The translations under genes were made by a program, and so were the position numbers. Shown piece after piece: positions 17,022 to 37,162 of a DNA stretch of 64,000 bases (positions are counted from its first letter, which is position 1; each line of letters begins with the position of its first letter). The DNA comes from Marasmius tenuissimus (taxonomy: Eukaryota > Basidiomycota > Agaricomycetes > Agaricales > Marasmiaceae), in NCBI GenBank assembly GCA_029532415.1, contig JAQOTA010000050.1:1054001-1118000 (forward strand), given 5' to 3'. The notes beneath the pieces are model-generated. The model made no database searches. It saw nothing but the letters and a program-made list of their open reading frames with translations, and was not told where the DNA came from.

Positions 17022-19726
17022 TGTAAAGCGCCACTCGCGGTGTATAATAAAATCTAACTCGTAGGTCAAATCCTCCCAACACTCAAGAGTGTAGCTGAAG
17101 GGTGCGGGAATCGGGGATCGGCGTTGATCGTAGGTTCCGCTCTTAGCCAGACTGCAATAGTAGGCTGAAGAAAATCTGACTCAAGAAACTATCCAACTAA
17201 GGTAGCTTCGCCTCTGAAACCAGTTCGGAGGTCAAAAGTGGGGTTCGGAAGAGAGGTTTATAGGTTGCTTCGGGGAGCGTAGAGTTTTGTTTGGTGCTTC
17301 GGAAGTGCGTTCTTAGGCTTCAACTAGCTTCAGAACCACTCGAACAGCGAGGGGTAACAAGACAATCAAATCAAACAATGGCAATAAGACTCCAATCAAG
17401 TCTGTCAATGACCGAAGACCAACTGTCAACGGCGAACAATATCCTCAGCCCAATTAGCTTCGGAAGTTCAACAATAGCTCAGCCAGTCAAGTCGGCGTCG
17501 CAGACAAACAATGCAAAGTCAAGGTCAAGCAAGTGTTCAATGGATTTTCTAGGTTTGGGCAAACAAAGTTCTATTCCGTTCTAATGTCTCTCCAGAAGCG
17601 CTCCCGAGTCAACTGACTACCCAACAAGTGGAATAGCTTCGTATCCTCTGAATACTAATCGTACGGATTGCTTGGGGATTCTTGATGAAAACCCCACTGC
17701 TTATATACCCTAGGAGGCTCTAATTCTACCTAATTGTACAAATATCGAAGAAATCATGCCTCGGAGGCATAAACTACCTACTTTGGAATATACTTGGAGA
17801 GTTTTGTGTTTAATCTACGCTTTTGAACCCCAAAGTCAAAACCAATAATTTGCTTCAGAAGTATCATCAGCCTCGAACATTCTCTAACATTCTTTTCTTC
17901 CGGGTCTCTCCTATCAATGGTTCCGTTCTCCCTATCTGCCTCCGCAGCAGTGATGCTCCGGTTCCAGACTCTTCAATCATCATAGGTCATCCTGTTCTGT
18001 CTGCCTCCGAAGCATATACTCCCTTCATCTGAAGCAACGTACTGCCTCCGAAGTGCTAGTAGGTACCTATATTCCTCGAGTTACCCAGCCATCCGCAGCC
18101 AGGTCGATGTCCTTTCTGTAGGTCGGATAGCTCTGACACCCTACCACCCATATGGTCGCCCCACTATATCCAATCCTGGTACCTTAGATACCGGGTAATA
18201 GTTCAATGGTTCAGCCAGAACTCCTACTCGATTCTTCGGTACACCATTCCTTTCTTTCTCAGTCCCCTGCCCTCCAATGCAGTCAAGCGCTGCGTATGGC
18301 TACCAGCACCAACTATGTCCTTTGTACAGTCAATATCTCCATGTACGAGTACAGTGGAGGTACAGCTATGGGGCAATTCCTTTGATCACTTCTCGATCAT
18401 TGTTTAGCGCCCAGTGCCTGGTTCGGATCCACGCCTCCGAAGCGCTAATTTCCTGGTTTCCGAAGTAAAATTTCCACTTCTGCGGCAAGTCCAGAGGTCA
18501 GTATAAGCAAATACTAGGTCGCCCCAGTTCCTTGCTTACTTTTCCCCGAGCGCACTATGGCACGCTTGCACAATATTGAAGATCACTTCCGCAACTTGCT
18601 CTATAGTAAGTCTCTCAATTTTCTAAACTCCGAGGCGGCTTGCTGACTCCCTCTTCAGGGTTGTATAAGCTCTGGTGGTATCCAGAAGACTACTCTAATA
18701 AGATCAAGGAGCGCCGCATCATCCTACCCATTCCACTCGACGCAGAACGAGAGGCTATCCTCAGAATCATCTTCCAGCATTTCTTCCTCAGTCGCCATAG
18801 ATCCATCTACTGGGGCTACGTGATTCGTTACGACATGATCCAGGACGAAATCTATCTCTGCGAGGACACCTTTGACCACTTTATTCCTCACGACGCCAGG
18901 TCTGTTATTGACATGGTCGCCGAGTCCATTGCTCGAGTTGGTTTCCTCGACTTCAAAACCGCTCGTACTCCTGGAGCCGTCAACGCTTGGATCGACGCCG
19001 TCGTCAGCTGTGCTGAGTGCCCAGCACCTCCGAAGCTTGACTATACCAAGCTCTCGTTCTTCCAATATTCCCCTGTCATGGGTCGTTGGCTCTCTCGATC
19101 CTTTTCTTTCTATAATCCTATTTTATGCGATCCATTCTATACCGATTATCTAGATCATGAAACCTTCATTGATTCTTATTATCCTGAAGATTCCGACGTA
19201 GATAATTACTTCGGTTGGGATGAGGTAGCTCTAGCCAATATGGATGACTAGCGTAACCTGTAGTATACCTAGTATACTTGAATCAATCATGCCTCCGAGG
19301 CGAGGCCTCGACCTTATACCAAGCTTCTGAGGCTCGACTTAGTCTCGCTTTCCGACCATCCATGCTTCCGCGGTGACCTCCTCTGTCTATCCCTACTAGT
19401 ACGGGTCTTCGTTAAATCTGATTCTGTTATTCTAATCCTTAGTACGATGCCTCCGAGCCACTGGAGATATTCCCTTGTTATGACTACAGGTCCTAGTCGT
19501 GCCTCCGAAGTGATACTTTCGTCAGTTATACGACTCCTACAGTTTTCAGAGATAAGGAGAGACGCCTCCGAGGCGCTATTCTTTCCTTATGCTAGGATCT
19601 GAGCCTTTTACTAGCCGCTCGGGACTCGCTCTAGTACTCGTATTACCTAGTCATTTCTTATCTGTTTTATGCTAAAATCGCACAAAAACAAGGCTCCGAA
19701 GCTGCTTTTTAATAGCAGGCGCTACA
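17022..19726 (-). repeat. Element 2 3' LTR (2705 bp)
   Basis: Matches 34454-37158. Most of its length is near-identical to the other LTR (one difference noticed in the first 720 bp), but about 17740-18960 differs at many positions. Contains an intact antisense gene (18557-19251). Followed at 19727 by TCTCCCCCAAAGCAAAA, the polypurine tract when read on the element's sense strand. Confidence 0.95.
18557..19251 (+). CDS. LTR-encoded two-exon protein, copy 1 (213 aa)
   Basis: Exon 1 is 18557-18605 and exon 2 is 18659-19251, separated by a 53-nt GT..AG intron; together 642 nt, exactly 214 codons. The product begins MARLHNIEDHFRNLL, is rich in aromatic residues (WWYPEDY, YWGYVIRYD), and ends in an acidic tail (YYPEDSDVDNYFGWDEVA). 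No domain recognised. It lies in U3 of the LTR on the strand opposite to gag-pol, so it is transcribed towards the element interior from this LTR. A GTATAAG element sits about 60 bp upstream of the ATG. The copy in the other LTR is also intact and has the same splice structure, with several amino-acid substitutions, which suggests selection for protein function. Role unknown. Confidence 0.8.
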
Positions 19727-19762
19727 TCTCCCCCAAAGCAAAATCCAGACCGTCCCCGGTCT
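19727..19762. promoter_or_regulatory. Polypurine tract and hairpin, module copy 1
   Basis: TCTCCCCCAAAGCAAAA (19727-19743) abuts the 3' LTR; on the sense strand it reads as a G-rich polypurine tract, the usual plus-strand primer. Three bases later AGACCG-TCCC-CGGTCT (19747-19762) can form a 6-bp hairpin. The same 17-mer followed by a hairpin with the same TCCC loop but a different stem occurs at 23834-23872. Confidence 0.7.
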
Positions 19763-20177
19763 AGTGTTTGTACGAGCAGAGGGGTTTTAGCGCGCATCCT
19801 TCCTTCTTTATTGACGGTTTCCCACGCCATCAGACGACTTCCGACCCTCTGTTCTTCAGAGGTATGTCTTCCAATTAATTTCCGCTGGTCAGAGTACGGC
19901 CGATCACTCGTTGCTAGGGCGATCTGATCTTACCCGGGTCCCAGAACCTTCCCCAATATTCCATTTCCAAATTGAGTGAACTTCCAATCATCCTAGTGAC
20001 TTCGAATGGTTCAACTTCCAAGTCACGAATATTTCTAAGTCCATCAGTCAGCCTCTGAAGTCATAGTTGAGTCAGACTGCGAAGGTTCCCGTCGGCTATT
20101 CCCGTAGGTCACGCAAATTGCCGAATGTGGCGGTTGTGGTTGAGTTTTGAACTTAGCCGAGGGGGTGCTTCTGAGGC
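19763..20177. other. Upstream region of antisense gene b
   Basis: About 415 bp without an ORF between the hairpin and the TATA box. It contains several variants of the dispersed GCTTC/GAAGC-type motif; nothing else is recognisable. Confidence 0.4.
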
Positions 20178-20185
20178 TATATAAG
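20178..20185 (+). promoter_or_regulatory. TATA box of antisense gene b
   Basis: TATATAAG, 56-63 nt before the ATG at 20241, directly preceded by GTGCTTCTGAGGC. The promoter of gene c (23967) has the same GTGCTTCTGAGG block immediately before its TATA box. Confidence 0.65.
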
Positions 20186-20240
20186 ACTTGCGTTTTTCTC
20201 GCTAAGTCCCCATATTTTCCCCACTTCCGCAGACTCCCCA

Positions 20241-23200
20241 ATGGCTCCTCCGAACCTCGTCACCCTCGCCCTTCAAAACTACGACATCCCTGCCGATTTC
20301 TTTCCTTTCATCTCTCCCCTCTATGACTTTCTCCTTACTTTCCGCAAACTCGGCGCCGCTCTCCACCAGAGCAATTCTCGCACCGAGCTCCGCGAGCTGT
20401 TCACCAAGCACAAGAGGATCTTGGTGATGAATTTCCCTTCATTCCTCTCATTCTGTTTGACTGAACCTCTATTTCAGCTTCAACTTTCCCGGCTCCGATC
20501 AGAGAGTGGAGGGATGGAGGACACCTTTGCCGGTTCCTTCATCCTTACCCTCTTTGACGCTTGTCATTCACATTTCAACGCCTCCGAACCGTTCAAGAAG
20601 GCTGTCAAAGGTTGGTGGCCTCAGTCGCATTCTCAGCGTAACAAGCTTCGGCGGCACGGCTGTTCTGTAAGCTCGGCCCCTCCTTTCTTTATTTCTATTT
20701 CCATTAATTCCTTCCTATACAGCCCTTCGACCTTTCCAAGCTTCCTGACGCCGCCATGGACCGTCATTTCTTGTCTCTGAAGCCCTCCACACCGCCGGCT
20801 CCTTCTCAACATCTTGGTACCATCGACGTCGATGCCAGCGACGACGACAACAACGATACTGTTCAAGCTGGCCCATCCAGGGTCGTTGAGTGCGGAAGTT
20901 CTGACGATGACTCCTCCGACGCCGTCAGCGCTTCGGAGGAGCATGTCCCCACTCACGATTCCTCGTCTCGCGGCTCATCCTACGTTGTCCCTGATCCGCC
21001 TGAAGACCCTCAGGCCGGTGCTTCCTCCTCAGACGACAACGACTTTGAGCCTCCTCCAGCTTCCGCGGAGGAAATCAACAGGTTCGTTCTTTCTCAACGC
21101 CTCGGAGACATCATGCCAACTCCGATCTTCCCTCCCTCTCACCGTCGACCTCGTATCCGTCATCCTGTGTCTCCGAATCATCAACACTGGGGTCCTCGAT
21201 CTAGGGTGAGTCCTCATATTCCTTCCTTGTTTCTAACTCAGTTATTAACTCCCTTGTGACAGCGCCGATCTGCATCTTCTTCCTCAGATGCTGATTCTGA
21301 CGATGAGGGGGAGACAGCTCCATCAATCCAGACTCTTCCCCTCATATCTCGTACCGACCATGAGGATATTGAAATGTCTGTGGTCGATGCTTCCGAACCA
21401 TCAGCTGATGGTGGTTTCACTACGGTAAGCACATCTAACTCCTGTTTCCATTCTCAATTCTAACTTCTTATCCATTCAGAATAACATGGCCATCGACGAC
21501 GAGGCCGGTGATGGAGAGGAGGACGACAAAGACATAGAGGAACACTCTATGTCTAGTCGCGAGGTTAAGGAGCGCCGGGAGGCTCTGTCATCCCTGAAGA
21601 ACTTGGGGAACCCCCGAGTTCCTCGTCCTCGCTCAGAAACCCCACCCCTGATTCCTCCTTCCGCGGCGGTAATCAAGGTCAGTCCTTCTTCTTCCTCACT
21701 CCATTCTCTTTGGTCTAACTTAATTTCCTTCAGACTCGAATTGGATGAACAGTGAACGCTCCGAGGCGTCCAGGTAGTTCAACGGCGGTCATACCTACCG
21801 TAAGTCTTCCTTTCTTGTCTAAGCAATTCTTCTCATCCTTTATCCTCAGATGCGTCCTTCATCTGGTCCTTTGACCTCGAAGCGGAAGCGCGAGTCTACC
21901 CCGGAGCCTCAGCATTCTACTCGAGCTCGCTCAATGTCTGCTGCGGCAGCTCCCGCTTCTGAAGATGAGGAGTCCAGTGGATCCGACTCTCCTCCTCCTA
22001 AGAAGGCGAAGACCTCCAGCAAGGCAAAGGGAAAGGGGCCGGCTCATCAGCACTCTGGTTCTCGTTCCCGTGCGCGTTTTTATGAGCGCCCTCAGTACGG
22101 AACACCCCCTCCCGACTTCAAATCCCCTGACGATATGGAAATCCGCGACGCGGACTCTGTTCTTGGCACCCCCAATAAGTCGGTGAGTCTCTTCCCCTTT
22201 ACTCGGCTTATTTCCTGGTTCTGACTTATTTCCCAGCCTGCTCCACTCTGGACCTCACTCCCCGGTACCAACAATGCCGACGAGGAGAGGCCCGAGTTCT
22301 GGGACCCCGTCAATGGTTATTTCTTGTCGAAAGGTCAATCTGGAGTTCCCGACGGAGTTATCCAAGGTAAGTCTCCCAGACTCATCTCTATTCTCTCTAA
22401 TCTTGTCCCACAGACCTCCGTGGCTACCTTTCGGTCCCAGGTCAACTTGACCTCCATGTTAACCACTTTGTTAACGCCACGGCTCCAATGCGTGCAGTGA
22501 GTACTTCTGCCTTATTCCTTTCTTGAGTCTTGACTCTGATTCTTACTTCAGCCTGCTCTGGGTCGCTCAAAGCTGGTGTGCTTTAGCTGCGTGCTTCACC
22601 CGGAGACTTGGATTCCATTTCCTGCCGACGACGACCAACATCTCTCCAACTCACGGAAGTGTCTCTTCTGCGTGCAGAAGAAGCTATCATGCGTAATGAG
22701 CTGTCCTTCCGAGGAGTTCGACAAGATGAAGGAGCTCTGCGCAGGCTGGGGTGAAAGTAGTGAGGCTGGTACGTGTCTTTCCCCGTCCATTTCCTACAGT
22801 TCTGATCCTCTTTTTCTTAGGACTGAGCCGTCAATTCGAGGAGATCGCCAATGGTCGGCGCACCGTCGAGAGGCTTATCAACACTCGGAACGATTTGGAC
22901 ACCGAGATCCAACGGCTCGCCGATCGTGATGCCGCTTTGGTTGCGAAGCTTCGGGAGTGCTGTCGCGACCCTCGAGACATACTTCGAGTTCTCTCCCGCA
23001 ACGACCCCAACTTCCAGCTCAGCATGCCGACTATCATGCAGCTATGCTCGGTTTTCGGATGGGACTTCTCTGAACTCCCCGAACCTTTTCAGTTTGGTCG
23101 GCACACAGATGGCACCCCCTACCTTCGGAACCAGGCTCAGGGTGACGTTCTGATGATCCCTTCCACTTCCGAGTTCCCTACTGGCACTCCCGCCCCTGCT

Positions 23201-23298
23201 GCCGGTCCTTCTCGTGTAAGTCCTCTTTTCCACTTTCTTCACCTCCTTTTACTAAGTGCTTGCCTTAGAAGGGTGGTCTCTTGTTTTCTCTCGATTGA
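20241..23298 (+). pseudogene. Antisense gene b of Element 2, 12 exons, one premature stop
   Basis: Exons: 20241-20423, 20478-20666, 20723-21205, 21263-21424, 21480-21677, 21734-21799, 21850-22182, 22237-22366, 22414-22496, 22552-22768, 22821-23215, 23269-23298. All introns are 47-57 nt and phases join throughout, giving 823 codons. The only lesion is an in-frame TGA at 21746-21748, in a 66-nt exon otherwise open in that phase. The protein starts MAPPNLVTLALQNYDIPADF, has long Ser/Asp/Pro-rich acidic segments, a basic patch (KRKRE, PPKKAKTSSKAK), a Cys cluster CFSC...CLFCVQKKLSC (C-x2-C, about 25 residues, then C-x2-C-x6-C), and a heptad-rich helical C-terminal part. The Cys spacing recalls half of a Zn2Cys6 domain. 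A nuclear, nucleic-acid-binding role is plausible but unproven. Translation could instead give a 409-aa protein ending at the TGA. Confidence 0.75.
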
Positions 23299-23872: not shown

Positions 23873-23966
23873 AGGCAGTTTACCCATTGTTCCGGACTCG
23901 CAAAATTTTCTTTACTTCGTAGGGACCTGAGATCCCTAAATTCCCGACGTCCATGTGCTTCTGAGG

Positions 23967-24080: not shown

Positions 24081-25454
24081 ATGTCTGTCAAACCTCCTGG
24101 ACGTCGTACCATCGGTGGCGGCACTGCTGCCTCCGAAGGTGCTTTTATGCCATTCGATCCTGACACTTATGCTGCTACTCTTCGAGAGAAGATGAACGAT
24201 GTTAAGGACGCCATCTCCACCAAATCCAAGTTCGGCCCCATGATCGCCACCGACTTGGCTACTTTCTTAGTACGTTTATCATATTCTTTTCTGCTTTTCT
24301 TTCTTATTAACTTCTATGCTTTTTACAGACTCACCCTATCATGGCCGCCGAACTTGCTGCTAATGACAAGGCTCTGATCATGTTCCGCAGCGCCGTGGAT
24401 TATGTTCTCCTGGTTTCTGCGGAACTGCCTGCTTTCTCTCTTCCTGCCAACTTCGACAAGGTTCAGTCGTTCGCTACCCATGTTCAGAAGTTGGCGAACA
24501 ACTTGGAGAAAGAGAAGGAAAAAGCCGAGAAGGAGAAAGAGAAGGCTTCTACCATCTCCCGCAAGCGTCGCACCGTAAGTATCTTTTACACTTCCGAGGC
24601 TTGCTCGCTCCTCATCCTTCACTTCAGAGGTCCAACCCCAAGTCTCCTGCCACAGTTGAAGACGATGATGTCTCCGATGGAGACCTTATCGACCTTCAGG
24701 GCGACACTAAGGTGTGTGATCCTCCGTTCATTCCTATCTTCTTCTCATGTTACATCCATTCCTCAGATGGTCGATGGTGGCAACGTTGAAGGTCTCCAGG
24801 CCAGCATTCACGCTGTCCCCGACATTGAAATTGTCGCCGGTCCCGTACGTGTTTGGCCCTGAACCACTTCCGAAGCTTGTTTCTGACCATCCTGGATTCT
24901 CAGAAGAAAAGTTCCAACATCCGCGGTGCTACGGTAAGCCTTCCTTACGATGCTATCCCTGGCATTTGCACCGAGTCGAACGCATACTCAAAGGCGATCT
25001 ATTACATCTCTAAGGCTCGCGGCAAGCTTCCTGCATTCAAGAAGACCCGCATTGAACCTGCTTTCAGCAATCTTCAAGCCGAATCTCCTGGTGCGCTCGT
25101 CTTTCCTCTTCCTCTAGACACATTCTCAATCTCTGATATTCAGCTGAGGCCCTTGAGCGTATTACCGAAGGACAACAAGTCGACCGTTTCGCTTCCCTGG
25201 TGCCTTTCTTGAACTTAGAGGCTCTAGAGGCTCCGACCTATCTGTCGATCGCCAACTTCCTCAAGTCCGAGCTCAACACTCTCGCACACGCTACTAAGTA
25301 CTATAGCGGCCAGTATTCCTTCGTTCAGAAGCAGTTGGAAGAGGTCAACCGAATTCATCTTTCCAAGATGGGGCTGAACGGCAACGCCTCCGAAGCGGTT
25401 GTCCACCCCGCCTCCGAAGCAACTGCTAGCTCCTCCAACACTTCCGCTGCGTAG
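24081..25454 (+). CDS. Antisense gene c of Element 2, six exons (364 aa)
   Basis: Exons: 24081-24269, 24329-24574, 24628-24711, 24767-24844, 24904-25090, 25144-25454; introns 53-59 nt, all GT..AG, all phases match, 365 codons with stop. The product begins MSVKPPGRRTIGGG, has a strongly charged helical segment rich in EKEKAEKEKEK (about residues 125-140) followed by a basic SRKRR, an acidic stretch, and a C-terminal helix with QKQLEEVNRIH before a tail in which ASEA is encoded twice by the dispersed GCCTCCGAAGC motif. No known domain. It resembles the antisense gene of Element 1 in exon number, size and helical character, but I see no convincing sequence identity. Intact frames argue that it is functional. 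Role unknown. Confidence 0.82.
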
Positions 25455-26067
25455 TATATAGACTCTAGACCGTCGTGTAGACCTAGATACACCACTGTGA
25501 ATGCATCACTGGACTCAAAAGGAGTCCTTCTATCCATATAATCCCCAAAATCCTGAATTTCTAAAATGCCTATTTTCTCGAGTGGTTTCGACTCGCGGAA
25601 CCTTGCACGGCTCATATCTCTATGAGTTCTTATCCATACAAGTCCGAATTCAGCACTATTTTGTAGAGAATTTTCTCCTCTTTCCGATGAGACCTTCAGC
25701 CCCATCAAAATCGCAGTTCTCGGCGCTTAATATCCAAATTACTCTCGCTCGCGCGAGGTCGCATCCTCGCCAAAATGCGAAATATGTAGGATACGCAGAA
25801 TTTGAATCCGCATTCGCTCCCAAGGAGAGCGCCCATCATTTCTATGGTTCCCACGGCTAGAAACAGTATATACGCTCTAGCGCGCTCAGTTTTGGTCGCA
25901 CCGATTTTGTCCCCAGATGTGAACGCAGAAGGCTCACAATCGCGAAATCATTTTCAAAATTTTGACACCCGAAAATTTTCTCGCAAATGCTTCAAATCAT
26001 CCAGAAATCCACTTTTTAAATTTTCGATTTATTCCTGATCACATAACCACCACCCCAACGCTCTCGC
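25455..26067. other. Spacer between converging gene c and pol
   Basis: About 610 bp between the stop of gene c and the stop of pol, which converge here. AT-rich patches and scattered short ORFs only; no supportable gene. Confidence 0.5.
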
Positions 26068-29000
26068 TCAGCCCCACTTAGGCATCCGCGAAATCAGAAT
26101 CTCTATGGGTACACATATCTTCTTATTCATGCCTCTGTTGCTGGATATCCAGAAGTTAGCCTGTGCCACCACCTTTTCTGTCGGTCTTATGGTTCGTTTA
26201 GATTTTTTAGGCTCTTCTGAGGCTAGATCTTCTTCTCCTTCAGCCTCCGAAGCAACATCCGGCACTTCATCATCTTCATAGGTCTCAAAGTCTCCTCGAA
26301 GAGATGGAAGGTTAGGGAAGGCATAGTCCGTACCATCCCTACTACCATCTTCTTCTTCTTCGATTAATTCATCCAATCTCTCTTTAGAAATGTCTATCAA
26401 TTCTTGGATATTCTCCGGCAAGCCTATAGGTTTATACCGCGAAACATGGGGTAATACCCTGAACGCCGCAACCTTGCCTCGGAGGACCGTGCCATCCATT
26501 TGCGCCAGAATGTACGAACCTCCACGGGTCCGTCTTATTACAATCAGGGGCCCTAGGTATCTTGGATACATCTTTCTATCCAAGCTCATTTCTATAGGTG
26601 AATTCCGCACCTGTACCAACGTTCCAGGAGCGAAATTATAATTCCTTAATCTGTTCTGGTGCTGCTTTTCAAACTGCCGAAGTGCCTGTCGCTTGTTGGC
26701 GTCCACCCTAGTAATCATCTCCTCCACATGGGTTCGGTGTTTAGCCAAAGCCACTGCTCGAAAGCCCAGTAGCTCCCCATAAGTGAGAATGCGTTCAGGT
26801 GTCCTTACTAACCAAGTAGACTCAACTATATCCAACGGTAGTATCGGTTCCGCACCAGTTACCAAGAAGTAGGGCGAGCATCCGAGGCCCCGACGAGCAG
26901 TTACCCTGTCGGCCCATAGTACTGGTTTCAAAAACCACCACCACTTCTTCAGATCATCATTAGTAGCCCGTACTAACGCTTCTCTTATAATCAGATGTGC
27001 TCTCTCAATCTTTCCATTCGCAGGGGAGTTGTACGGCGAGATTTTGATCCCTCGTATACCATACTTCTCTTCTACCCACTTTAGAACATTCGTCATCTGA
27101 GGAGCATTGTCCGACACTATTTCTTCAGGACATCCCCAGCGACAAATGATATCTTCAAATAGCCATTCCCCAATGCTCCGAGCTGATTCTCTCTTCACCG
27201 CTCGTGCTTCGGGCCAACTACTAAGCGCACATCTTCCGTGTATAATGTTTTGACACCCGTTGCTGGCAGGTGTCATCTTCATAACATCAATATGGATCTT
27301 TTGGAATAATGAAGGTGTATAAGTCAAGGTCGGAGGCAGTTTCTGAAGTGTCATGGTGCGCTCCTGGCAGGTTTTGCACGATTTGATGAACCATTCTACA
27401 TCTCCCTCGATGTCAGGCCACCAGAACCTCTTGTCTATGAGGTCCATTGTCGCATATAAACCCTTATGCCCACATTTATCATGAGCTGCCGACATCATCC
27501 ACACCCTTTTCTCTTTGCTCACTATCAGCTTGTGCTGACCAGTGCCGTCCAGATTCAACTTATACATCCTATCGTCGTACAAAGCATAACGACTACACTT
27601 CGCGATGAACTTCTGCTTAGCCGACTTAGGCATGTGCAGCGAACTCGAAAGCGGGTGCTCTAAGTACTTCCTAATCTTCAGAAGCTCATAATCTTGGTTC
27701 TTTGCGTATTCAGATCTATGATCCTCCGAGTACGGATTTTCATCGATCCATTCTTGCGTTGGCTGTGGAGGGACTACCCAGTAATTACTGAAGCATTCCA
27801 TCACCTCCGAGCCAAACTGTCGCATATGATCCTGGACCTGACAAGTCCAAACTCGCGCATCTTCTTCCGCTGCCTGCAACTCGTCTCTGAAATCCTCTTC
27901 CGAAGTAGCCAGCTTGAACAAATACCCTCCTCGAGCATCGATAGTATGCTTATACTCGTCGAAGTCATAGGGAAACGAAGATTCTCCCTCCCCCAAAGTA
28001 AATGGAATAGGTTCTCCGTCGTCTTCATCCCAAGCTGCATCTTCTTCTTCCTTTCCCCGAGGCGTTTCTATGCCTCCGGGCGGTGGTCGAGATAATCCAT
28101 CCGGTCCATGTGTAGCTCCTTTGACATGTACTAACTCGAATTTGTACTTCCGAATCTCTTCAATCCATCTATTGATCGTAGCATTAGGTCCACAGCTCGG
28201 ATTATCCAACATTCCTTTAATATAGCTGGCATCCGTTTCAACTATTAACGGTCGACATCCATATGTCTGGTAGAATGTGGCCTGTAAGGCGATTTTTAAA
28301 CCGAATAGTTCTCTCTTAGGCTGTGAAAACCTGGCCTCTCGTTCATTGAGAGGTATAGATCCGAACCAGTTGTAATGCCTCTTCTTCGGGTTGTCTGGGT
28401 CCACTTGATATAGAATGAAACCAACAGCCTGCCACGAAGTGTCGACTGACAATACCAATCCATTCGGATTGTTAACATCAATGGGTCGAAGCGCTGGGGC
28501 CTTCCGAATTGCTTCTTTCAAAACCTCGACAGCCTCAAACTCTTCTTCACCCATCTCGAAAGCAACCGACTTAGAAGTCAACCGATTCAGAGGTCTAGTA
28601 ATCTTAGCATAATCCTTAATAAACTGCCTCAGTTGAACCGCCGTCCCCAAGAAGGACTTAATATCCGTCTTATCGCGGAACTTGTGAGGGTCCCACGACA
28701 GGATCGTGTTTGCGAACTTTTCCATTGGCTTTTCTCCTTCATACGAACATCTGTGCCCGAGTACATCTCCTTCTGAGACACAGAGGAACGCTTTGGTACC
28801 GGAGAAAGTGACTCCGCAGTACTTCATTCTTTGACAGATCCGATTCACATTCTGGAAATGCTCCCATACGAACCTCCGAATTCCTGGATTTCCTGGTATT
28901 GTCTCGTATTCCCCTGGTTTCCCAGGTATCTCGTAACGAGTCGGAGGCCCTTTAATAGGCACATCATCCACATAAGGTCTAGTAATATAAGGAATCTCAT

Positions 29001-30768
29001 CCCTAAGGATGTACGTAACATCATCGTGAAATATGGGTACCGAGTTAGTCCAGCCCATAGGTAATTTCACTAGTCTATGAGGTCCGAAGGGCGTTTGGAA
29101 AGTCGTTAAGTCTCTTGAATCTTCATCAATGAGGCGTTCATCATACCCCACATAGATATCTAGGAGACCAATGCATGACCGCCCAGAAAAAGCTGCTGCC
29201 ACTTCCGCAGTCGCTGGAGGAATGCCCGAATACTGAATAGTCACAGCGTTCAAGGGTTCCAAGCTATGCACAAGTCGGAGGCTCTTTCCATCCTTCTTAA
29301 GAACACAAAACCATTTCGATCGATACGAGGAACTCGAAGGTTCATAGACCCCCGCATTAATCTTATCTTTAATAATGCCACATACTTGTTCGAAAATCCC
29401 GGGTGGGATTGGTATGTTTCTCTCTACCCAAGGTGTGTGGGGTAGAACCGGAAACTTGACCGGTGGGAAGAAGTCGGTTCTGAACGATCCCCCTTCCTCC
29501 GGACTCCAGGCAAACGCAGACTCATGCACCATCATCAGATAGTGCATCAATTTACGCTCCTCTTTCCATAAAAACTCTTCCGCATGGTTCTGATCTATGA
29601 TGGCTTTTCTTTCTTCAGTGTATCGGCCTGTCGGTTGGAATTCAGGAGGGTGAATAGGCAGTTCAGGTAGGTCCGCCAGTGGATCCCCTTCAATATTCCT
29701 TTCCACTCTGAACTCTCCCGGCAGCGGAGCCTTGACAGGTTTTACCTTTAGGGCAACCGGTTTGTATTTCCCAAACACCGACTTCACAGTTTGTAGGTCT
29801 TCGGAGCCCAGTTCAAACTGCGAGAATACCTCGGCGACATTAGCCTCCGAGCCACCTTCTTCGCAAATCTGATCCATGGTTTCAAACATCCGAAGCACCT
29901 TCCCGACTCCAGCACTGTTATCTGGATGTCGCAACCATCCGTAGACAAGAACCTGATGCAGAGTATCATTACTCACGAACTCCGTTAATTCCTCACCGTC
30001 CAACTGACACCCCTCAAACTGCATATGCTCTTTTCTAATTTCTTTTATTTGTTCAAAGACCCTCCCTAAGTCACTGAGTTCTGAAAGTAACGTCGAAAAC
30101 AGGTTAGGTAGCTGGCCGGGCTTGGATTCCCGTTGTTTCCGAGCCGCAAGCTCTCGAATAATGATTTTCGCTAGCTCGCCCTCGAATCCAGTCTTGGAGG
30201 GGTCAGTCCCAAGGTTTCGTTCAAAAGCATCTATCAGTTCTGTTTGTCCGTAGTCCGATATGAAATCTAAGACGTCCATAAGTTTTCTCCAGGCTCCGAG
30301 CTTTCTAATCTCGAACCTTCTTAGTCTATCAAGTTCCTTTGGGAATTTCTTTGAAAATACAGCTTTGTACTTTGATCTAGGGACAGTACTAGGCCGAGAC
30401 ACCATCTTCCGAGGCGGTGGTCCTTTCCTCTCAGGTAGTGGTCTCTGCATGTACGAGGAGACAGTCCGCTTCGGAGGTTCCCGATCCAGACTCTCACGCC
30501 AAGTACTATATACACACTTTCCATCCTCGATGGTTTGGTTGACGTACGCATCGAGCATTTCTGCTGCTTCAGCTTCCTCTGGCTCGGAGGCCAACATAAA
30601 TGCTTCCGCAAGCTCTCTATCATCAAATTTTCTCTGATCTGGAATCTTGACTTTCGTTATATGGACTTGCCCAGCTTCATCCGCTTCGAGTACTACGGCC
30701 ACCTCTCCCTGATCTGGGATCAGTTCATCAAGGTATCGTGAAAATTTCCAGCCTCCTCCGAAGAGTAG
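26068..30768 (-). CDS. pol: Element 2 Pol: RT-RNase H-integrase
   Basis: The frame is open from 30768, overlapping the protease ORF by 49 nt, and there is no credible ATG at its start (the first start-like codon is a GTG at 30702, used for numbering). Reverse transcriptase carries YVDD at 577-580; RNase H follows (VLSVDTSW, QPKRELFGLK, VETDAS, HGPDGLSR); integrase has an HHCC finger from about 1074 and the triad D1139, D1198, E1233. After that comes a GPY/F-like segment (YLGPLIVIRR) and an acidic C-terminus. No chromodomain is visible, unlike Element 1, so the two are from different Ty3 lineages. No internal stops. Expected to be made only as a frameshift fusion with the protease ORF. Confidence 0.95.
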   Translation of the reverse strand, partial: LLFGGGWKFSRYLDELIPDQGEVAVVLEADEAGQVHITKVKIPDQRKFDDRELAEAFMLASEPEEAEAAEMLDAYVNQTIEDGKCVYSTWRESLDREPPKRTVSSYMQRPLPERKGPPPRKMVSRPSTVPRSKYKAVFSKKFPKELDRLRRFEIRKLGAWRKLMDVLDFISDYGQTELIDAFERNLGTDPSKTGFEGELAKIIIRELAARKQRESKPGQLPNLFSTLLSELSDLGRVFEQIKEIRKEHMQFEGCQLDGEELTEFVSNDTLHQVLVYGWLRHPDNSAGVGKVLRMFETMDQICEEGGSEANVAEVFSQFELGSEDLQTVKSVFGKYKPVALKVKPVKAPLPGEFRVERNIEGDPLADLPELPIHPPEFQPTGRYTEERKAIIDQNHAEEFLWKEERKLMHYLMMVHESAFAWSPEEGGSFRTDFFPPVKFPVLPHTPWVERNIPIPPGIFEQVCGIIKDKINAGVYEPSSSSYRSKWFCVLKKDGKSLRLVHSLEPLNAVTIQYSGIPPATAEVAAAFSGRSCIGLLDIYVGYDERLIDEDSRDLTTFQTPFGPHRLVKLPMGWTNSVPIFHDDVTYILRDEIPYITRPYVDDVPIKGPPTRYEIPGKPGEYETIPGNPGIRRFVWEHFQNVNRICQRMKYCGVTFSGTKAFLCVSEGDVLGHRCSYEGEKPMEKFANTILSWDPHKFRDKTDIKSFLGTAVQLRQFIKDYAKITRPLNRLTSKSVAFEMGEEEFEAVEVLKEAIRKAPALRPIDVNNPNGLVLSVDTSWQAVGFILYQVDPDNPKKRHYNWFGSIPLNEREARFSQPKRELFGLKIALQATFYQTYGCRPLIVETDASYIKGMLDNPSCGPNATINRWIEEIRKYKFELVHVKGATHGPDGLSRPPPGGIETPRGKEEEDAAWDEDDGEPIPFTLGEGESSFPYDFDEYKHTIDARGGYLFKLATSEEDFRDELQAAEEDARVWTCQVQDHMRQFGSEVMECFSNYWVVPPQPTQEWIDENPYSEDHRSEYAKNQDYELLKIRKYLEHPLSSSLHMPKSAKQKFIAKCSRYALYDDRMYKLNLDGTGQHKLIVSKEKRVWMMSAAHDKCGHKGLYATMDLIDKRFWWPDIEGDVEWFIKSCKTCQERTMTLQKLPPTLTYTPSLFQKIHIDVMKMTPASNGCQNIIHGRCALSSWPEARAVKRESARSIGEWLFEDIICRWGCPEEIVSDNAPQMTNVLKWVEEKYGIRGIKISPYNSPANGKIERAHLIIREALVRATNDDLKKWWWFLKPVLWADRVTARRGLGCSPYFLVTGAEPILPLDIVESTWLVRTPERILTYGELLGFRAVALAKHRTHVEEMITRVDANKRQALRQFEKQHQNRLRNYNFAPGTLVQVRNSPIEMSLDRKMYPRYLGPLIVIRRTRGGSYILAQMDGTVLRGKVAAFRVLPHVSRYKPIGLPENIQELIDISKERLDELIEEEEDGSRDGTDYAFPNLPSLRGDFETYEDDEVPDVASEAEGEEDLASEEPKKSKRTIRPTEKVVAQANFWISSNRGMNKKICVPIEILISRMPKWG

Positions 30769-32243
30769 TTATTATCTTGAGGCTGTTCCTTATCGCTTTC
30801 CGTTTCCTCTGCAGATTGCTGTTCCTCCGAGGGTCGTCCCATGTCTTTCAGGGTGTGCTCAGTCCTCCGAGGCACTATTTTCTTACCCTGTCCCCTCGGA
30901 TATGTTCCTATTGTTGACCTCTGTCCTGAGTTAGGGCACCGGATGGTCAATTCCTGATACCCATCGGCATAGTTGTGAATTTGTGATTCTGTTAATACGT
31001 CAAATGGCCGTCCTAGTAGCACTTTGTACGGTGCGCTATCTAAGATGTGCAGTTGCAAGTAGAATGTCAAGTCGCCGAAGCGGAAAGGCACATTACGAGC
31101 CAGTCCCCTCGTCTTCTTCAACTGTCCATTTGCTCCCTGCATATGAATAACCGTGTCTGGGTCCCAATGTACACCGAGCCCAACAGCGACCATCATATCC
31201 ATGGCAATGATCTGCGACCCGCTATCCAAGATGCTTTCTACCTCATCCGATTGGTTGATTTTAGGATATACCGACCTCAGTGCATCCGAGGTGCTCGCAA
31301 CAATAATGATCTTGCTGCGGTCGCTCGACTCTATATCTTGTCGAAACACTTCGGTAATGTCCTTCTGAACCACCGCCCCGGCGGGCAAATCTCCGACTGC
31401 GACCTTCAGAACCTCGAACTGTTCATCCAGGTCCATGTCAGATACTTGAACAACGTACGACGCTTCCATGCCAATCACTTTCTCAACTTTCTCAACGTCC
31501 TCGGAGGCAATCTCCTGAATAAAAGATTCCACCGAAGTACGTTGAATGGCTCGATTTCGAGCTTTGCGTTGGAAGATCTTCTTAACTCCTGGTGAAATGG
31601 CTAGCAACTCTTCCTGCGTCACAGAAAGCTCTTGCTTCATCATCCTCTCCACGATTTCTTCCTCCACATCCGTGGACTTAATAATTGTCCTTTTGGGTGC
31701 TTCCGAAGCGCCCGGACCTTGCGGCCTGTGTGGTCCCTTCGAAAGTCTTAGGGTATCCGTGTTCGGGGTGACATGACGAACATTCCCCGCAACATCGCTA
31801 ATGGAGACGACGTGATCTCTGGGTATAGCCGGTCTGGTTACAGCCGGTACATCGTCAAAAGGTCGTTTCACCGAAGGAGGTGGCGTAGTCACTGGGGTCG
31901 CGTCCTTATCTCGCCCAGTCCTTCCTCCTACGGGGTTTACACTTACAGATTCCTCGGGGGGTTCATCCTCCTCATCTGAAGATGCATGGGTATCAATTGT
32001 CGGTACAACCGCTCTAATCTCCCTACGCTTCGGAGGCGGTGTATTAGGTCGAACAGAAACAGAAACCTCAGGCTCAGAAATTCTAACTTGTTTTTGTGGT
32101 TTTTCTTTATTTTCTTGCTTCCGCTTCCACTCTCTAATAGCTCGTGGGGCTGGTGGTATTACTACCTGTGGAACCTCCGGAGTCACAGAACTCTTCCGAG
32201 GTGAGCTTCTGCGCTCCATCCTTGGTCGTTCTAGTTTTTTGAC
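30720..32243 (-). CDS. pro: Element 2 aspartic protease ORF
   Basis: A separate frame between gag and pol. It is open from 32243, overlapping the gag stop, with a first ATG at 32219 (499 codons from there). The N-terminal half is charged and Pro-rich with no domain. The C-terminal half has the retropepsin signature ILDSGSQIIAMD, followed by a predicted flap region and LLGRPF, as in clan AA proteases. Having the protease in its own frame between gag and pol, with a -1 shift at each end, is the arrangement of betaretroviruses rather than the one or two ORFs of most Ty3 elements. The protein should process Gag and Gag-Pol. Confidence 0.88.
   Translation of the reverse strand, partial: VKKLERPRMERRSSPRKSSVTPEVPQVVIPPAPRAIREWKRKQENKEKPQKQVRISEPEVSVSVRPNTPPPKRREIRAVVPTIDTHASSDEEDEPPEESVSVNPVGGRTGRDKDATPVTTPPPSVKRPFDDVPAVTRPAIPRDHVVSISDVAGNVRHVTPNTDTLRLSKGPHRPQGPGASEAPKRTIIKSTDVEEEIVERMMKQELSVTQEELLAISPGVKKIFQRKARNRAIQRTSVESFIQEIASEDVEKVEKVIGMEASYVVQVSDMDLDEQFEVLKVAVGDLPAGAVVQKDITEVFRQDIESSDRSKIIIVASTSDALRSVYPKINQSDEVESILDSGSQIIAMDMMVAVGLGVHWDPDTVIHMQGANGQLKKTRGLARNVPFRFGDLTFYLQLHILDSAPYKVLLGRPFDVLTESQIHNYADGYQELTIRCPNSGQRSTIGTYPRGQGKKIVPRRTEHTLKDMGRPSEEQQSAEETESDKEQPQDNNYSSEEAGNFHDTLMN
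30741..30747 (-). promoter_or_regulatory. -1 slippery site, protease to pol
   Basis: On the minus strand A AAT TTT lies in protease phase inside the 49-nt overlap. Pol is exactly the -1 frame. A 6-bp hairpin CTGATC-CCA-GATCAG starts 17 nt downstream, farther than the usual 5-9 nt, so the stimulatory structure is less certain than in Element 1. Confidence 0.7.
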
Positions 32244-34348
32244 TCATCTTTTGACTCCATATTAAGGTAGGATTCCATCACATCCTCCATCGATCCAAGT
32301 CTGCCAGCCATTTCCTTAATTAACGGGTGATCCGATATATCAGGGGCTGTCTTCTGCATGAAGCTCTCCCGGCCTGGTTCTTGCTCAGTTGCGAACAATA
32401 CCGCCGTAGGGTCTTCCCCTCCACTGGTGTTAGGCCAGTGGTTAGCTTCAGCTTTCTCCTTAATGATTTCCCATCTCTGCTTGTTCTCGCCGAATCTTAC
32501 AAAAGGTACTGGAGAGCCATCGTATAAGACGTACTTTCCTCCATCACCCTTCCGTATCCATCCTTTCTTGATACATTCCTCCTGGTAATCACACTCTGGC
32601 GCCATATGCCCGGTTTTGCCACACATGAAACAAGTAGTTCCTGTCGACATATCCTGAGCGGCTTTCCCCAGCATTGCGGTTCCCGTCTTCATAGGTGGTT
32701 TGTACCCACTAGAATAGGATGCCTTCGGCGCTTCTCTTGTTGCCGAAGTCATGATCAGCTTTCGCAGTTCTACCAAATTATTATCCAACGTCTTCTCGGA
32801 TTTCTGCAGATTCTCAATCACTCTAGTCTGGAACTGTTCCATGTCCGACTGGAAGGTTTTCAGCTTCGTATCGTAGGTATCCACTTTCGCTAGCACCTTC
32901 ATGGTATCATCGTCCAATTCCGTCTTTTTCGCCGGTTCAGACTTTCCATGTGTTCTAAGTGTACCCTGCCGAACCTCTCTCGGTACTGGTACCTCCGCAG
33001 CGTCCCTCTTCATCTTTGATTCCGAGGAGGTCTGCATGTAGGTATATCCGCTCCCAGACTTCATGATCATCTCCGCCTGACCAATCACTTCCTCCAGGGT
33101 GTAAGGGTCCTGCTTCCGTCTTTCGCTTTCTTCCGCATTACCTCCCCCTGTCTGAGCTTTCATTTGGGCTCTAATCTGCAATCCATCCACAATGGCTTTC
33201 ATTGCCATATAATCAAATGCTTTCAGAAACATATCTACTAGTGTTTTGTTGGACAGCAACGCCGGAGGCTTCTGAAGTTTCGCCGCCTCCATTCGGAACC
33301 TCCGAACAAAGGCATTGAATCTAGACTCTGACACTTGTAGGGACATCGTAGCGAACTCATCAATGACCCTCCTCAGAGCTTCATGGCTTCCATACTTGGC
33401 GTCTATAGCCCATGCACTTTCAATTTCTTTCTTGAATTCCTCCCAGCTGCGCCCTCTGCTCGATTTAAGAGTCTCTACTTCCTTCCGAAGCGAGTAACTC
33501 ATGCTGCTAATAGCACAAAATATCTTCGCTTCATCCATAGTGATCTTTTTCGCAACAAAGGCTGCTTCGACATCGTCGAACCAACAGAGCCATTCGTCTT
33601 CCGTATTGCCCTGAAACGCCACTGGGAACTTATGCGCCTTCCCCTTTTCAGACGCCACCTGTTCTTTCTGCGCATCAGTCAGATCTCTCCAACTTTCTCT
33701 TGTTACGTGTTCTGTCATCGTGTCTTCGGAATCTGATTTCTCTTCTGGTGGTAGTATACGAACTTTAAACTTCTGATGATGAAAGCCCCGAAGCGCTGCC
33801 TTTCTCTTTTGTTCTAGGCGAAACTCTGGGTCCTTCTTACTTCGTTTCCGAATTATCTTCTTCTGAAGCTCGTCGTTCTTTCTAATGATATTGAGAAATC
33901 TAAGTCCCAAGATTGCGGTGTTAAGATCGAGGTTCACTCGTTCCTGAGGAGTTTGAAAAGTAAAGTCCGACTCTGGTATGCCAAGTCCTGCCGGAGGTAG
34001 TTCCTGCGTCAATGACTCTTCGTCCCGAAATCTGACTTGTCTGTCTACTTCCTCAGACGAATCTGTGATAGGGCTTAATTCTGAGTCTTCAGAACCAAAT
34101 CCCGAAACGTGGATCTTTGGAGGTGTGGTTTCCTCCTGTACAGGTGTTTCTTCTTCAAAAGCTCCCGGAATAACCGGATTCTTCTTTCTCGTTCTTCTGG
34201 TAGGCAGGTAGTCGTTGACTGACCCTAAACCAGCTGCAGATGAGGTCGCCGAGTCTCTAGGAATTTTGTTCCTTAAAACTGGAGCAATCTCTTTTGAATA
34301 ACTGAGCTTCGGAGTGAAGCTCAATCGGTGTGAATGTACGGTGACTTC
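32231..34348 (-). CDS. gag: Element 2 Gag, with non-AUG N-terminal extension
   Basis: Capsid/nucleocapsid protein. The frame is open from 34348 to the TAG at 32231, but contains no ATG until 33718 (residue 203 counting from the TTG at 34324). That ATG has A at -3, and the Gag domain begins soon after (FQGNTEDEWLCWFDDVEAAF, about 228 onward). A CCHC knuckle CFMCGKTGHMAPEC lies near the C-terminus. The upstream 202 codons are charged and clearly coding in character, so they are either translated from a non-AUG start or joined to an upstream exon. The AUG-initiated form would be 495 aa, an ordinary Gag size. The ORF ends at the A AAA AAC slippery site. Confidence 0.88.
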   Translation of the reverse strand, partial: EVTVHSHRLSFTPKLSYSKEIAPVLRNKIPRDSATSSAAGLGSVNDYLPTRRTRKKNPVIPGAFEEETPVQEETTPPKIHVSGFGSEDSELSPITDSSEEVDRQVRFRDEESLTQELPPAGLGIPESDFTFQTPQERVNLDLNTAILGLRFLNIIRKNDELQKKIIRKRSKKDPEFRLEQKRKAALRGFHHQKFKVRILPPEEKSDSEDTMTEHVTRESWRDLTDAQKEQVASEKGKAHKFPVAFQGNTEDEWLCWFDDVEAAFVAKKITMDEAKIFCAISSMSYSLRKEVETLKSSRGRSWEEFKKEIESAWAIDAKYGSHEALRRVIDEFATMSLQVSESRFNAFVRRFRMEAAKLQKPPALLSNKTLVDMFLKAFDYMAMKAIVDGLQIRAQMKAQTGGGNAEESERRKQDPYTLEEVIGQAEMIMKSGSGYTYMQTSSESKMKRDAAEVPVPREVRQGTLRTHGKSEPAKKTELDDDTMKVLAKVDTYDTKLKTFQSDMEQFQTRVIENLQKSEKTLDNNLVELRKLIMTSATREAPKASYSSGYKPPMKTGTAMLGKAAQDMSTGTTCFMCGKTGHMAPECDYQEECIKKGWIRKGDGGKYVLYDGSPVPFVRFGENKQRWEIIKEKAEANHWPNTSGGEDPTAVLFATEQEPGRESFMQKTAPDISDHPLIKEMAGRLGSMEDVMESYLNMESKDESKN
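32234..32240 (-). promoter_or_regulatory. -1 slippery site, gag to protease
   Basis: On the minus strand A AAA AAC is immediately followed by the gag stop TAG (32233-32231) and is in gag phase. After slippage the protease frame is open. A AAA AAC is one of the most efficient known eukaryotic -1 heptamers. No strong stem was found at the usual distance; GAGC/GCTC is a weak candidate. Confidence 0.8.
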
Positions 34349-35105
34349 CTAACTTGGACGAAACAGCAAAAGTTGTATAATTCTTGAACAGACTTCACTA
34401 TCTACCACTAGTACACTCTAAACTAGATCCTTCCCTCAAGGTCGGGCTCCAGATGTAAAGCGCCACTCGCGGTGTATAATAAAATCTAACTCGTAGGTCA
34501 AATCCTCCCAACACTCAAGAGTGTAGCTGAAGGGTGCGGGAATCGGGGATCGGCGTTGATCGTAGGTTCCGCTCTTAGCCAGACTGCAATAGTAGGCTGA
34601 AGGAAATCTGACTCAAGAAACTATCCAACTAAGGTAGCTTCGCCTCTGAAACCAGTTCGGAGGTCAAAAGTGGGGTTCGGAAGAGAGGTTTATAGGTTGC
34701 TTCGGGGAGCGTAGAGTTTTGTTTGGTGCTTCGGAAGTGCGTTCTTAGGCTTCAACTAGCTTCAGAACCACTCGAACAGCGAGGGGTAACAAGACAATCA
34801 AATCAAACAATGGCAATAAGACTCCAATCAAGTCTGTCAATGACCGAAGACCAACTGTCAACGGCGAACAATATCCTCAGCCCAATTAGCTTCGGAAGTT
34901 CAACAATAGCTCAGCCAGTCAAGTCGGCGTCGCAGACAAACAATGCAAAGTCAAGGTCAAGCAAGTGTTCAATGGATTTTCTAGGTTTGGGCAAACAAAG
35001 TTCTATTCCGTTCTAATGTCTCTCCAGAAGCGCTCCCGAGTCAACTGACTACCCAACAAGTGGAATAGCTTCGTATCCTCTGAATACTAATCGTACGGAT
35101 TGCTT
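33719..35105 (-). promoter_or_regulatory. AUG-free leader of Element 2
   Basis: From the predicted transcript start (about 30 nt after the TATA box) to the ATG at 33718, roughly 1387 nt, the sense strand contains no ATG in any frame; I checked every line for CAT on the plus strand. The zone includes the R-U5 part of the LTR, the leader and 202 open gag codons. The first ATG upstream of the zone is at about 35189, beyond the TATA box. Confidence 0.8.
34439..34453 (-). promoter_or_regulatory. Candidate primer-binding site of Element 2
   Basis: Two bases after the 5' LTR end, the minus strand reads TGGAGCCCGACC. It starts TGG, as expected for pairing with the CCA end of a tRNA, but I cannot assign the tRNA. 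I found no self-complementary match in the LTR of the kind seen in Element 1. Confidence 0.4.
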
Positions 35106-35131
35106 GGGGATTCTTGATGAAAACCCCACTG

Positions 35132-35139
35132 CTTATATA
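35132..35139 (-). promoter_or_regulatory. Sense TATA box in Element 2 5' LTR
   Basis: TATATAAG on the minus strand; the same box is present in the other LTR near 17700. It places the RNA start near 35105, leaving about 2 kb of U3 and about 650 bp of R-U5. Confidence 0.6.
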
Positions 35140-35988
35140 CCCTAGGAGGCTCTAATTCTACCTAATTGTACAAATATCGAATAAACCATGCCTCGGAGGC
35201 ATAAACTACCTACTTTGGAATATACTTGGAGAGTTTTGTGTTTAATCTACGCTTTTGAACCCCAAAGTCAAAACCAATAATTTGCTTCGGAAGTATCATC
35301 AGCCTCGAACATTCTCTAACATTCTTTTCTTCCGGGTCTCTCCTATCGATGGTTCCGTTCTGCCTATCTGCCTCCGCAGCATTGATTCTCCGGTTCTAGA
35401 CCCTTCAATCGTCGTAGGTCATCCTGTTCTGTCTGCCTCCGAAGCATATACTCCCTTCGTCTGAAGCAAAGTACTGCCTCCGAAGTGCTACTAGATGCCT
35501 ATATTCATGGAGTTACCCAGCCGTTCATAGCCAGGTCGATGTCCTTTCCGTAGCTCGGATAATTCTGAGGTCCTGCCATCCATATGGCCGCCCCACTATA
35601 TCCAATCTTGGTGCCTTGGATACCGGGTAATAGTTCAATGGTTCAGCCAGAACTCCTACTCGATTCTTTGGTACACCATTCCTTTCTTTCTCAGTCCCTT
35701 GCCTCCCAGTGCAGTTGAGCACTGTGTTTTGCCACCAGCACCAACTATGCCCTTAGTACAGTCAATATCTCCATGTACGAGTATAAGGGAGGTACCTCGA
35801 CGGTGCAACTCCTTCGATCACTTCTCGATCATTGTTTAGCGCCCAGTGCCTGGTTCGGATCCACGCCTCCGAAGCGCTAATTTCCTAGTTTCCGAAGTAA
35901 AATTTCCATTTCAGCGGCCAGTCCAGAGGTCAGTAAAAGCAAGTGCTAGGTTGTCCCAATTCCTTGCTTACTTTTCCCCGAGCGTACT

Positions 35989-36683
35989 ATGGCACGCTTG
36001 CATAACATTGAAGACCACTTTCGCAACTTACTCTATAGTAAGCCTTTCTACTTTCTAGATTCCGAGGCGGCCTTCTGACTTCCTCTCCAGAGTTGTATAA
36101 GCTCTGGTGGTATCCAGAAGATTACTCTGATAAGATCAAGGAGCGCCGCATCATCCTACCCATTCCACTCGACGCAGAACGAGAAGCTATCCTCGGAATC
36201 ATCTTCCAGCAGTTCTTCCTCAGTCGCCACAGATCCGTCTACTGGGGCTACGTGATTCGTTACGACATGATCCAGGACGAAATCTATCTCTGCGAGGACA
36301 CCTTTGACCACTTCATTCCTCACGACGCCAGGTCTATCATCGACATGGTCGCCGAGTCCATTGCTCGAGTGGGATTCCTCGACTTCAAAACCGCTCGTAC
36401 TCCTGGAGCCGTCAACGCTTGGATCGACGCCGTCGTCAGCTGTGCTGAGTGCCCAGCACCTCCGAAGCTTGACTATACCAAGCTCTCGTTCTTCCAGTAT
36501 TCCCCTGTCATGGGTCGTTGGCTCTCTCGATCCTTTTCTTTCTATAATCCTATTTTATGCGATCCATTCTATACCGATTATCTAGATCATGAAACCTTCA
36601 TTGATTCTTATTATCCTGAAGATTCCGACGTAGATAATTACTTCGGTTGGGATGAGGTAGCTCTAGCCAATATGGATGACTAG
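35989..36683 (+). CDS. LTR-encoded two-exon protein, copy 2 (213 aa)
   Basis: Exon 1 is 35989-36037 and exon 2 is 36091-36683, with a 53-nt intron at the same place as in copy 1 and 214 codons in total. It differs from copy 1 at several residues (for example at the exon junction, and N/D, R/G and H/Q changes in the first 50 codons of exon 2), while the last two thirds are almost identical. The TATA-like GTATAAG of copy 1 reads GTAAAAG here, so this copy may be less active. It is transcribed away from gag, towards the right flank. No recognised domain. Confidence 0.8.
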
Positions 36684-37162
36684 CGTAACCTGTAGTATAC
36701 CTAGTATACTTGAATCAATCATGCCTCCAAAGCGAGGCCTCGACCTTATACCAAGCTTCTGAGGCTCGACTTAGTCTCGCTTTCCGACCATCCATGCTTC
36801 CGCGGTGACCTCCTCTGTCTATCCCTACTAGTACGGGTCTTCGTTAAATCTGATTCTGTTATTCTAATCCTTAGTACGATGCCTCCGAGCCACTGGAGAT
36901 ATTCCCTTGTTATGACTACAGGTCCTAGTCGTGCCTCCGAAGTGATACTTTCGTCAGTTATACGACTCCTACAGTTTTCAGAGATAAGGAGAGACGCCTC
37001 CGAGGCGCTATTCTTTCCTTATGCTAGGATCTGAGCCTTTTACTAGCCGCTCGGGACTCGCTCTAGTACTCGTATTACCTAGTCATTTCTTATCTGTTTT
37101 ATGCTAAAAATGCACAAAAACAAGGCTCCGAAGCTGCTTTTTAATAGCAGGCGCTACACCGC

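Follow-up and report, generated by a model that had tools for sequence, protein, structure and literature searches.

Grande, RIRE2, Retand, PvRetro13 and the fungal element Boty all carry antisense open reading frames (ORFs) behind pol, the function of which is unknown (Vicient and Casacuberta, PMC7264820). In Boty/BcGypsy1 of Botrytis cinerea, the antisense gene brtn lies between pol and the 3´ long terminal repeat (LTR) (PMC7264820, PMC8365987). These and related accounts further indicate that the Grande antisense product is nuclear and has its own promoter (PMC7264820), that DNA binding is predicted for the antisense TRP28 protein of Retand (PMC11963269), and that the VANC proteins of Arabidopsis VANDAL transposons undo silencing via a short, dense DNA word (PMC5735166). 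Here we describe a 20 kb Ty3-type LTR retrotransposon of Marasmius tenuissimus, a mushroom behind cacao thread blight (PMC8581569), which lies on the minus strand at positions 17022-37158 of a 64,000-nucleotide stretch of DNA (the window) and carries an antisense gene in each LTR and two further antisense genes, b and c. The window is part of a 6.9-Mb contig in a genome of 71 Mb.

As in Boty, antisense coding sequence lies between pol and the 3´ LTR of a fungal element, here in a 6.3 kb interval that holds genes b and c. The available parts of the Boty descriptions mention no second antisense gene, no LTR gene and no element-wide word, and brtn could be compared by description only. An earlier, sequence-only reading of the window knew of no described fungal element with this layout, a statement that is too strong given brtn. 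The plant aORF-3R elements likewise have no LTR gene in those parts of their descriptions that are available. The novelty of the Marasmius element is a conserved antisense gene inside the LTR combined with a palindromic word, GCYTCSGARGC, found throughout the element; antisense genes behind pol are already known. We put at roughly 45% the probability that the antisense genes encode proteins that work in trans within the nucleus and use this word to boost expression of the element itself.

Three antisense genes under protein-level selection

All three antisense genes are under protein-level selection, with ratios of nonsynonymous to synonymous substitution rates (dN/dS) of about 0.2 for the LTR gene, 0.10-0.14 for gene b and 0.11-0.12 for gene c. 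The LTR gene has two exons and encodes 213 amino acids (aa) in both LTRs of the element. In the 3´ LTR, its exons lie at 18557-18605 and 18659-19251 on the plus strand and transcription would point inward; in the 5´ LTR, they lie at 35989-36037 and 36091-36683, also on the plus strand, and transcription would point outward. This arrangement agrees with the sequence-only reading, which had described 2.7-kb LTRs each holding an intact two-exon gene, so that every insertion carries one inward and one outward copy.

Of the 30 LTR copies examined, 29 have an intact LTR gene. The 30 ranked highest among 37 full-length matches, found when 40 of 204 candidates were scored, and the sample therefore leans to young copies. 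Across the 30 copies, diversity at codon positions 1, 2 and 3 was 0.022, 0.009 and 0.043, and 0.061 in the intron; this pattern, together with the intact frames, excludes a chance origin of the reading frame. Internal branches gave a dN/dS of ~0.21 and terminal branches one of 0.41. Among the private singletons, 14 were synonymous, 32 replacement and 1 nonsense, with no departure from neutrality (p = 0.21), and selection thus is seen during element replication and not on resident solo LTRs. Host-level selection on the genes of solo LTRs was considered and rejected on the same grounds.

Genome-wide, at least 150 matches to the LTR gene were counted, with 150 of 187 candidates scored; some are partial, and in 107 of the 150 there is no stop in the matched stretch. 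Twenty of the 30 LTRs examined are not bordered by internal sequence and were taken as solo LTRs; these retain the LTR gene. To our knowledge, no other gene is preserved intact in LTRs at so many scattered places, and a literature search restricted to open-licence papers found no conserved antisense gene inside an LTR. Proteins encoded within an LTR or initiated there have precedents in sag of mouse mammary tumor virus (MMTV) and HBZ of human T-cell leukemia virus type 1 (HTLV-1); MMTV Sag is sense, unlike the antisense LTR gene here, and HBZ starts in the 3´ LTR but is not wholly inside it. An antisense promoter in the 3´ LTR has been described for HTLV (PMC7264820).

Gene b (20241-23298, plus strand) lies between pol and the 3´ LTR and has 12 exons, at 20241-20423, 20478-20666, 20723-21205, 21263-21424, 21480-21677, 21734-21799, 21850-22182, 22237-22366, 22414-22496, 22552-22768, 22821-23215 and 23269-23298. 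Gene c (24081-25454, plus strand), in the same interval, has six, at 24081-24269, 24329-24574, 24628-24711, 24767-24844, 24904-25090 and 25144-25454, and is intact. The 364-aa model of gene c agrees with NCBI protein P0021 (364 aa) of M. tenuissimus, and an 821-aa model of gene b, made from another copy, agrees with NCBI protein P0028 (822 aa) from the same species. Location, splicing signals and NCBI models all bear out the earlier description of two multi-exon plus-strand genes between pol and the 3´ LTR, but gene b is broken in the window copy by an in-frame stop in the sixth coding exon. Between copies, dN/dS was measured at a synonymous divergence (dS) of 0.16 to 0.59 for gene b and 0.13 for gene c, using exon coordinates in which the last junction is misplaced by one base, an error that affects about one codon. 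Compared with a copy on contig C30, the exons of gene b are 86% identical and the introns 69%.

From a conserved N-terminal part, the gene b protein runs through acidic stretches and two basic clusters (KRKR and KKAK) to a six-cysteine cluster (22579-22692, plus strand). By eye, the two basic clusters look like nuclear signals and a coiled coil probably follows the cysteines. The cysteine spacing in other gene b copies is CX2CX6CX16CX2CX6C; the window copy lacks one of the cysteines, and neither the stop nor the cysteine loss is seen in the C5 and C40 copies. The cluster is present in six of eight gene b homologues, including P0033 and P0034 of Marasmius sp. AFHP31. Identification of the cluster as a Gal4-type Zn2Cys6 domain was considered and rejected, given no match to Pfam Zn_clus and a loop of 16 in an otherwise similar spacing, and a search of PDB sequences with gene b gave no match. 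Retand has a TRP28 domain, whereas b and c have no Pfam match above cut-off, and PF04195 (TRP28) had no match in the antisense proteins. Outside the element, a minus-strand ORF at window positions 59823-60359 resembles gene b in having a double CxxC cluster, with a charged and seemingly helical stretch behind it; a domain of wider occurrence in mushrooms may therefore include the gene b cluster. In a comparison by eye with the copy on contig C40, about 1.2 kb of gene b (window 21850-23100) is near-identical and the flanks are clearly more diverged, a mosaic pointing to recombination among element copies.

Genes b and c travel with pol. Both are present in every one of the nine copies with matches to 900 or more of the 1544 pol residues (contigs C7, C40, C20, C24, C27, C35, C32 and two on C30; 93-100% pol identity), so that, as in Grande, RIRE2 and Retand, antisense coding sequence behind pol is conserved in most copies. 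This answers the call of the sequence-only reading to check co-occurrence with the pol lineage, and near relatives with the same pol but lacking all three genes, which it named as a refutation, did not turn up. Six pol fragments are shorter: two on C30, of which one holds b together with exon 1 of c and the other b alone, and four (C35:760 kb, C39, C30:47 kb and C10:3.38 Mb) that showed neither gene in protein searches; a piece of gene b DNA lies ~28 kb from the C35 fragment. Added to these nine copies and two C30 fragments, a pair of sites within a tandem on contig C5 brings the places with gene b to 13. This LTR-b-LTR-b-LTR tandem (C5:3500360-3517127), in which neither pol nor gene c was found, has ACGG at both outer sides and probably is a single insertion rearranged after integration. 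At four places on C51 and at C30:445 kb, DNA 77-86% like window 25394-26067 (from the last part of c as far as pol) suggests that one more, diverged family exists.

The three genes also have homologues in a second species, as a search of related fungi, likewise suggested earlier, revealed. In Marasmius sp. AFHP31, homologues of gene b (51-52% identity) and gene c (70-81%) have neighboring locus tags on two contigs, and LTR-protein homologues fall in clusters of 59 and 61 members, which would be expected to lie within LTRs in that genome too.

A palindromic word enriched across the element

The 11-base consensus GCYTCSGARGC was chosen by merging overlapping 8-mers that are most over-represented in the element. 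Counted without the second LTR, the element (17022-37158) holds 39 sites of this word, 11 exact and 28 with one mismatch, and 55 in total. In 40 dinucleotide shuffles, the expectation was 0.03 exact and 1.0 one-mismatch sites (mean 1.05). The remaining 44 kb of the window hold one exact and three one-mismatch sites, and an adjoining Ty3 element holds no exact and one one-mismatch site. Such strong enrichment of a short word in its own element, alongside an element-encoded accessory protein, resembles the VANC system, with the difference that binding here is putative. The palindromic form of the consensus is as would be expected for the site of a dimer.

The enrichment extends into coding sequence, where we counted 21 of the 39 sites against 6.3 expected, with a maximum of 11 in 60 shuffles of synonymous codons. 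Since the coding sites exceed what these shuffles give, it is as DNA that the word is selected or spread. Sites reach their highest density, 4.6 and 12.6 per kb, in the LTR outside coding sequence, and are absent from the leader and from 25455-26067, both of them short. Sites with up to two mismatches lie upstream of four candidate TATA boxes at distances of 1-61 bp: 1-2 bp for genes b and c, 38 and 61 bp for the LTR gene and 42 bp for a candidate sense TATA (TATATAAG, near 17707 in the 3´ LTR, minus strand).

The element, its relatives and its surroundings

The two LTRs, both on the minus strand, lie at 17022-19726 (3´ LTR in element orientation, U3-R-U5) and 34454-37158 (5´ LTR), begin and end with TGTAAA...CTACA, and are 96.1% identical across 2705 bases without gaps. 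The element is flanked by a CCGC target site duplication at 17018-17021 and 37159-37162. A polypurine tract (GCTTTGGGGGAGA, 19727-19739, minus strand) adjoins the 3´ LTR, and a candidate primer binding site (TGGAGCCCGACCTTG, 34437-34451, minus strand) adjoins the 5´ LTR. In line with the sequence-only reading, gag, pro and pol are found as three minus-strand ORFs with Pfam domains: gag (32231-34324) has a zf-CCHC knuckle just below the Pfam cut-off, the protease ORF pro (30720-32219) has an aspartyl protease domain above it, and pol (26068-30702) has RNase H and integrase zinc domains above it and rve below. The Pfam reverse transcriptase (RT) model PF00078 had no match in pol, and the presence of an RT is suggested by the pol layout, the RNase H domain and a YVDD motif seen by eye. 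The repeats with TG..CA ends, primer binding site, polypurine tract, target duplication and domain order (protease, RT-RNase H, integrase) are those of a Ty3-type element; no chromodomain match was found at the pol end in Pfam at E up to 1, which sets it apart from chromoviruses. Similarity between the two LTRs is patchy, 88-96% over 17822-18821 and 97-100% in the remaining 200-base steps; given this mosaic, the 96.1% identity does not give an age, and dating the insertion from LTR divergence was dropped.

Eight pol relatives were found at 39-50% identity over the RT part (30 of 574 candidates were scored). Behind pol, the three at 49-50% (C10, C8 and C11) all have an antisense gene that is spliced and encodes a six-cysteine cluster, as detected with a cysteine pattern wide enough for C10 and C8; the C8 copy of this gene has a stop in its first exon. 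The C10 and C11 antisense proteins are 31% identical with all six cysteines aligned, and a genome search with the C10 protein matched only C10, C8, C11 and a fragment on C63. Homology of this gene to gene b (hhalign probability 7%) or of its protein to the LTR protein was not supported, and searches with b and c homologues found neither gene in these ~50% identity relatives. A PDB sequence search with the C10/C11 antisense protein gave nothing beyond a ribonuclease match at chance level. LTRs of the C8 element measure 330 bp, and its 5-bp target duplication is GTTCC. In its gag-side piece (L045 1-4176), the word TCGGAGAT, which overlaps the core of GCYTCSGARGC, occurs five times against 0.28 expected, and pol relatives may thus have word variants of their own. 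The 7-kb stretches behind pol of the C27, C26 and C69 relatives showed no six-cysteine cluster. Long sense ORFs (>480 aa) occupy the env position behind pol in the C27 and C26 relatives (L046 611-2068 and L048 5271-6881), and in the latter (L048) this ORF adjoins one whose end is a hydrophobic stretch.

Directly to the left of the element, window 4344-16855 holds the adjoining Ty3-type element, on the plus strand, with an RT near 11164 and 890-bp repeats; because these are 100% identical, it probably is a very recent insertion. At window 42087-43383, a ~469-bp repeat in two to three copies lies mostly within minus-strand frames of a probable host gene.

Possible functions of the antisense module

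The LTR gene, b and c may form a coadapted antisense accessory module. The genes apparently are driven by their own TATA-type promoters, and since they oppose the genomic RNA, in which they would stay unspliced, their introns could survive retrotransposition. Spliced antisense transcripts would give three proteins, and gene b at least is predicted to encode a nuclear DNA-binding protein, given its putative nuclear signals, cysteine cluster and probable coiled coil. This protein would recognize GCYTCSGARGC in the LTR and body of the element, near promoters, and when bound might open the element's chromatin, activate its transcription or keep it on against host silencing, with the LTR protein and the gene c product as possible partners. 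Of the sequence-only reading's proposal of an accessory module acting on the element or on host chromatin, the module itself stands, being present, selected and carried along with pol; action of either kind is a conjecture, of which action on the element is the better half because the word is element-wide. We regard as rather doubtful a broader version, in which the antisense proteins, the solo LTRs that still supply one of them, the word and a coupled CpG-centered integration together make up a built-in regulon for transcription and anti-silencing.

Several observations weigh against self-activation through the word. None of the three proteins has a Pfam family above cut-off, and the structure model of the LTR protein was too poor to use (mean pLDDT, the predicted local distance difference test score, of 35). 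The cysteine cluster is absent from two of the eight gene b homologues (P0032 and P0035), and the PROSITE Zn2Cys6 pattern (CX2CX6CX5-12CX2CX6-8C with basic residues) fails in all eight. Overall diversity of LTR gene exon 2 (0.024) is not below that of the flanking LTR (0.018-0.043). Word sites are no more conserved among LTR copies than other noncoding LTR sequence (permutation p = 0.37), and conservation was accordingly set aside as proof of function; of the 13 sites in the b-c region, the C30 copy, with nine sites in all, retains seven at one mismatch or fewer. The proximity of the word to promoters is suggestive at most, since 49% of 120-bp stretches of the element contain a site with up to two mismatches and since the LTR gene TATA of the 3´ LTR reads TAAAAG in the 5´ LTR. 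VANDALs are DNA transposons, and their words form tandem arrays in noncoding DNA, whereas those of the Marasmius element are dispersed and palindromic and occur in coding DNA too; a search at score 80 found no tandem array in the element.

Alternatively, the three proteins could serve the particle or preintegration complex, for instance in nuclear import, RNA packaging or target choice, with the word incidental or bound by host factors. We consider this unlikely, even though the insertion sites are distinctive. An exact 4-bp duplication flanks 16 of the 20 solo LTRs, with CG central in 15 of those 16, and CG is central in 19 of 20 left flanks (TG in the remaining one) against a background CpG frequency of 4.3% in the flanks. 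The C8 relative, which has the other antisense gene, duplicates 5 bp without CpG. The sequence-only reading had noted neither the CpG-centered insertions nor the word. An integrase with a CpG preference would be unusual, and open-licence papers yielded nothing fitting on CpG-centered integration; the preference could be attributable to the accessory proteins. Regulation of retrotransposition also has been discussed for plant antisense genes (PMC7264820). The candidate opposite-strand promoters, however, imply that the proteins probably are not made from packaged RNA, and a role in replication would leave the enrichment of the word, at the DNA level and in most parts of the element, unexplained.

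It is less probable still that the LTR gene is a dosage-dependent repressor through which each insertion, solo LTRs included, limits further jumps. The abundance of the gene (at least 150 matches against 13 places for gene b), the many matched stretches free of stops and its retention by solo LTRs are what such copy-number control would leave behind, but the near-neutral singletons indicate selection on the replicating lineage and not on the resident solo copies that would protect a host. A function of antisense transcription itself, through double-stranded RNA or promoter interference and with the reading frames as passengers, appears very improbable: the antisense genes do overlap the genomic RNA, and regulatory antisense RNA has been discussed for plant elements (PMC7264820), but codon-level selection on all three genes, with dN/dS of ~0.1-0.2, contradicts it as the sole function. 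Chance capture of host genes without a role in the element, for which one could cite that no family match links any of the three genes to retroelements, is largely refuted by purifying selection, by the paired b and c homologues in the second species and by protein searches in which b and c matched only element copies, fragments and rearranged copies.

In the Marasmius element, three antisense genes, one of them duplicated in the LTRs, stand alongside a word, GCYTCSGARGC, that offers a direct target on which their function can be tested. If one of their proteins binds the word, a fungal retrotransposon would carry its own sequence-specific self-regulation or anti-silencing, and the solo LTRs, remnants of a mostly vanished element, would make up a large, scattered set of potential regulatory genes.

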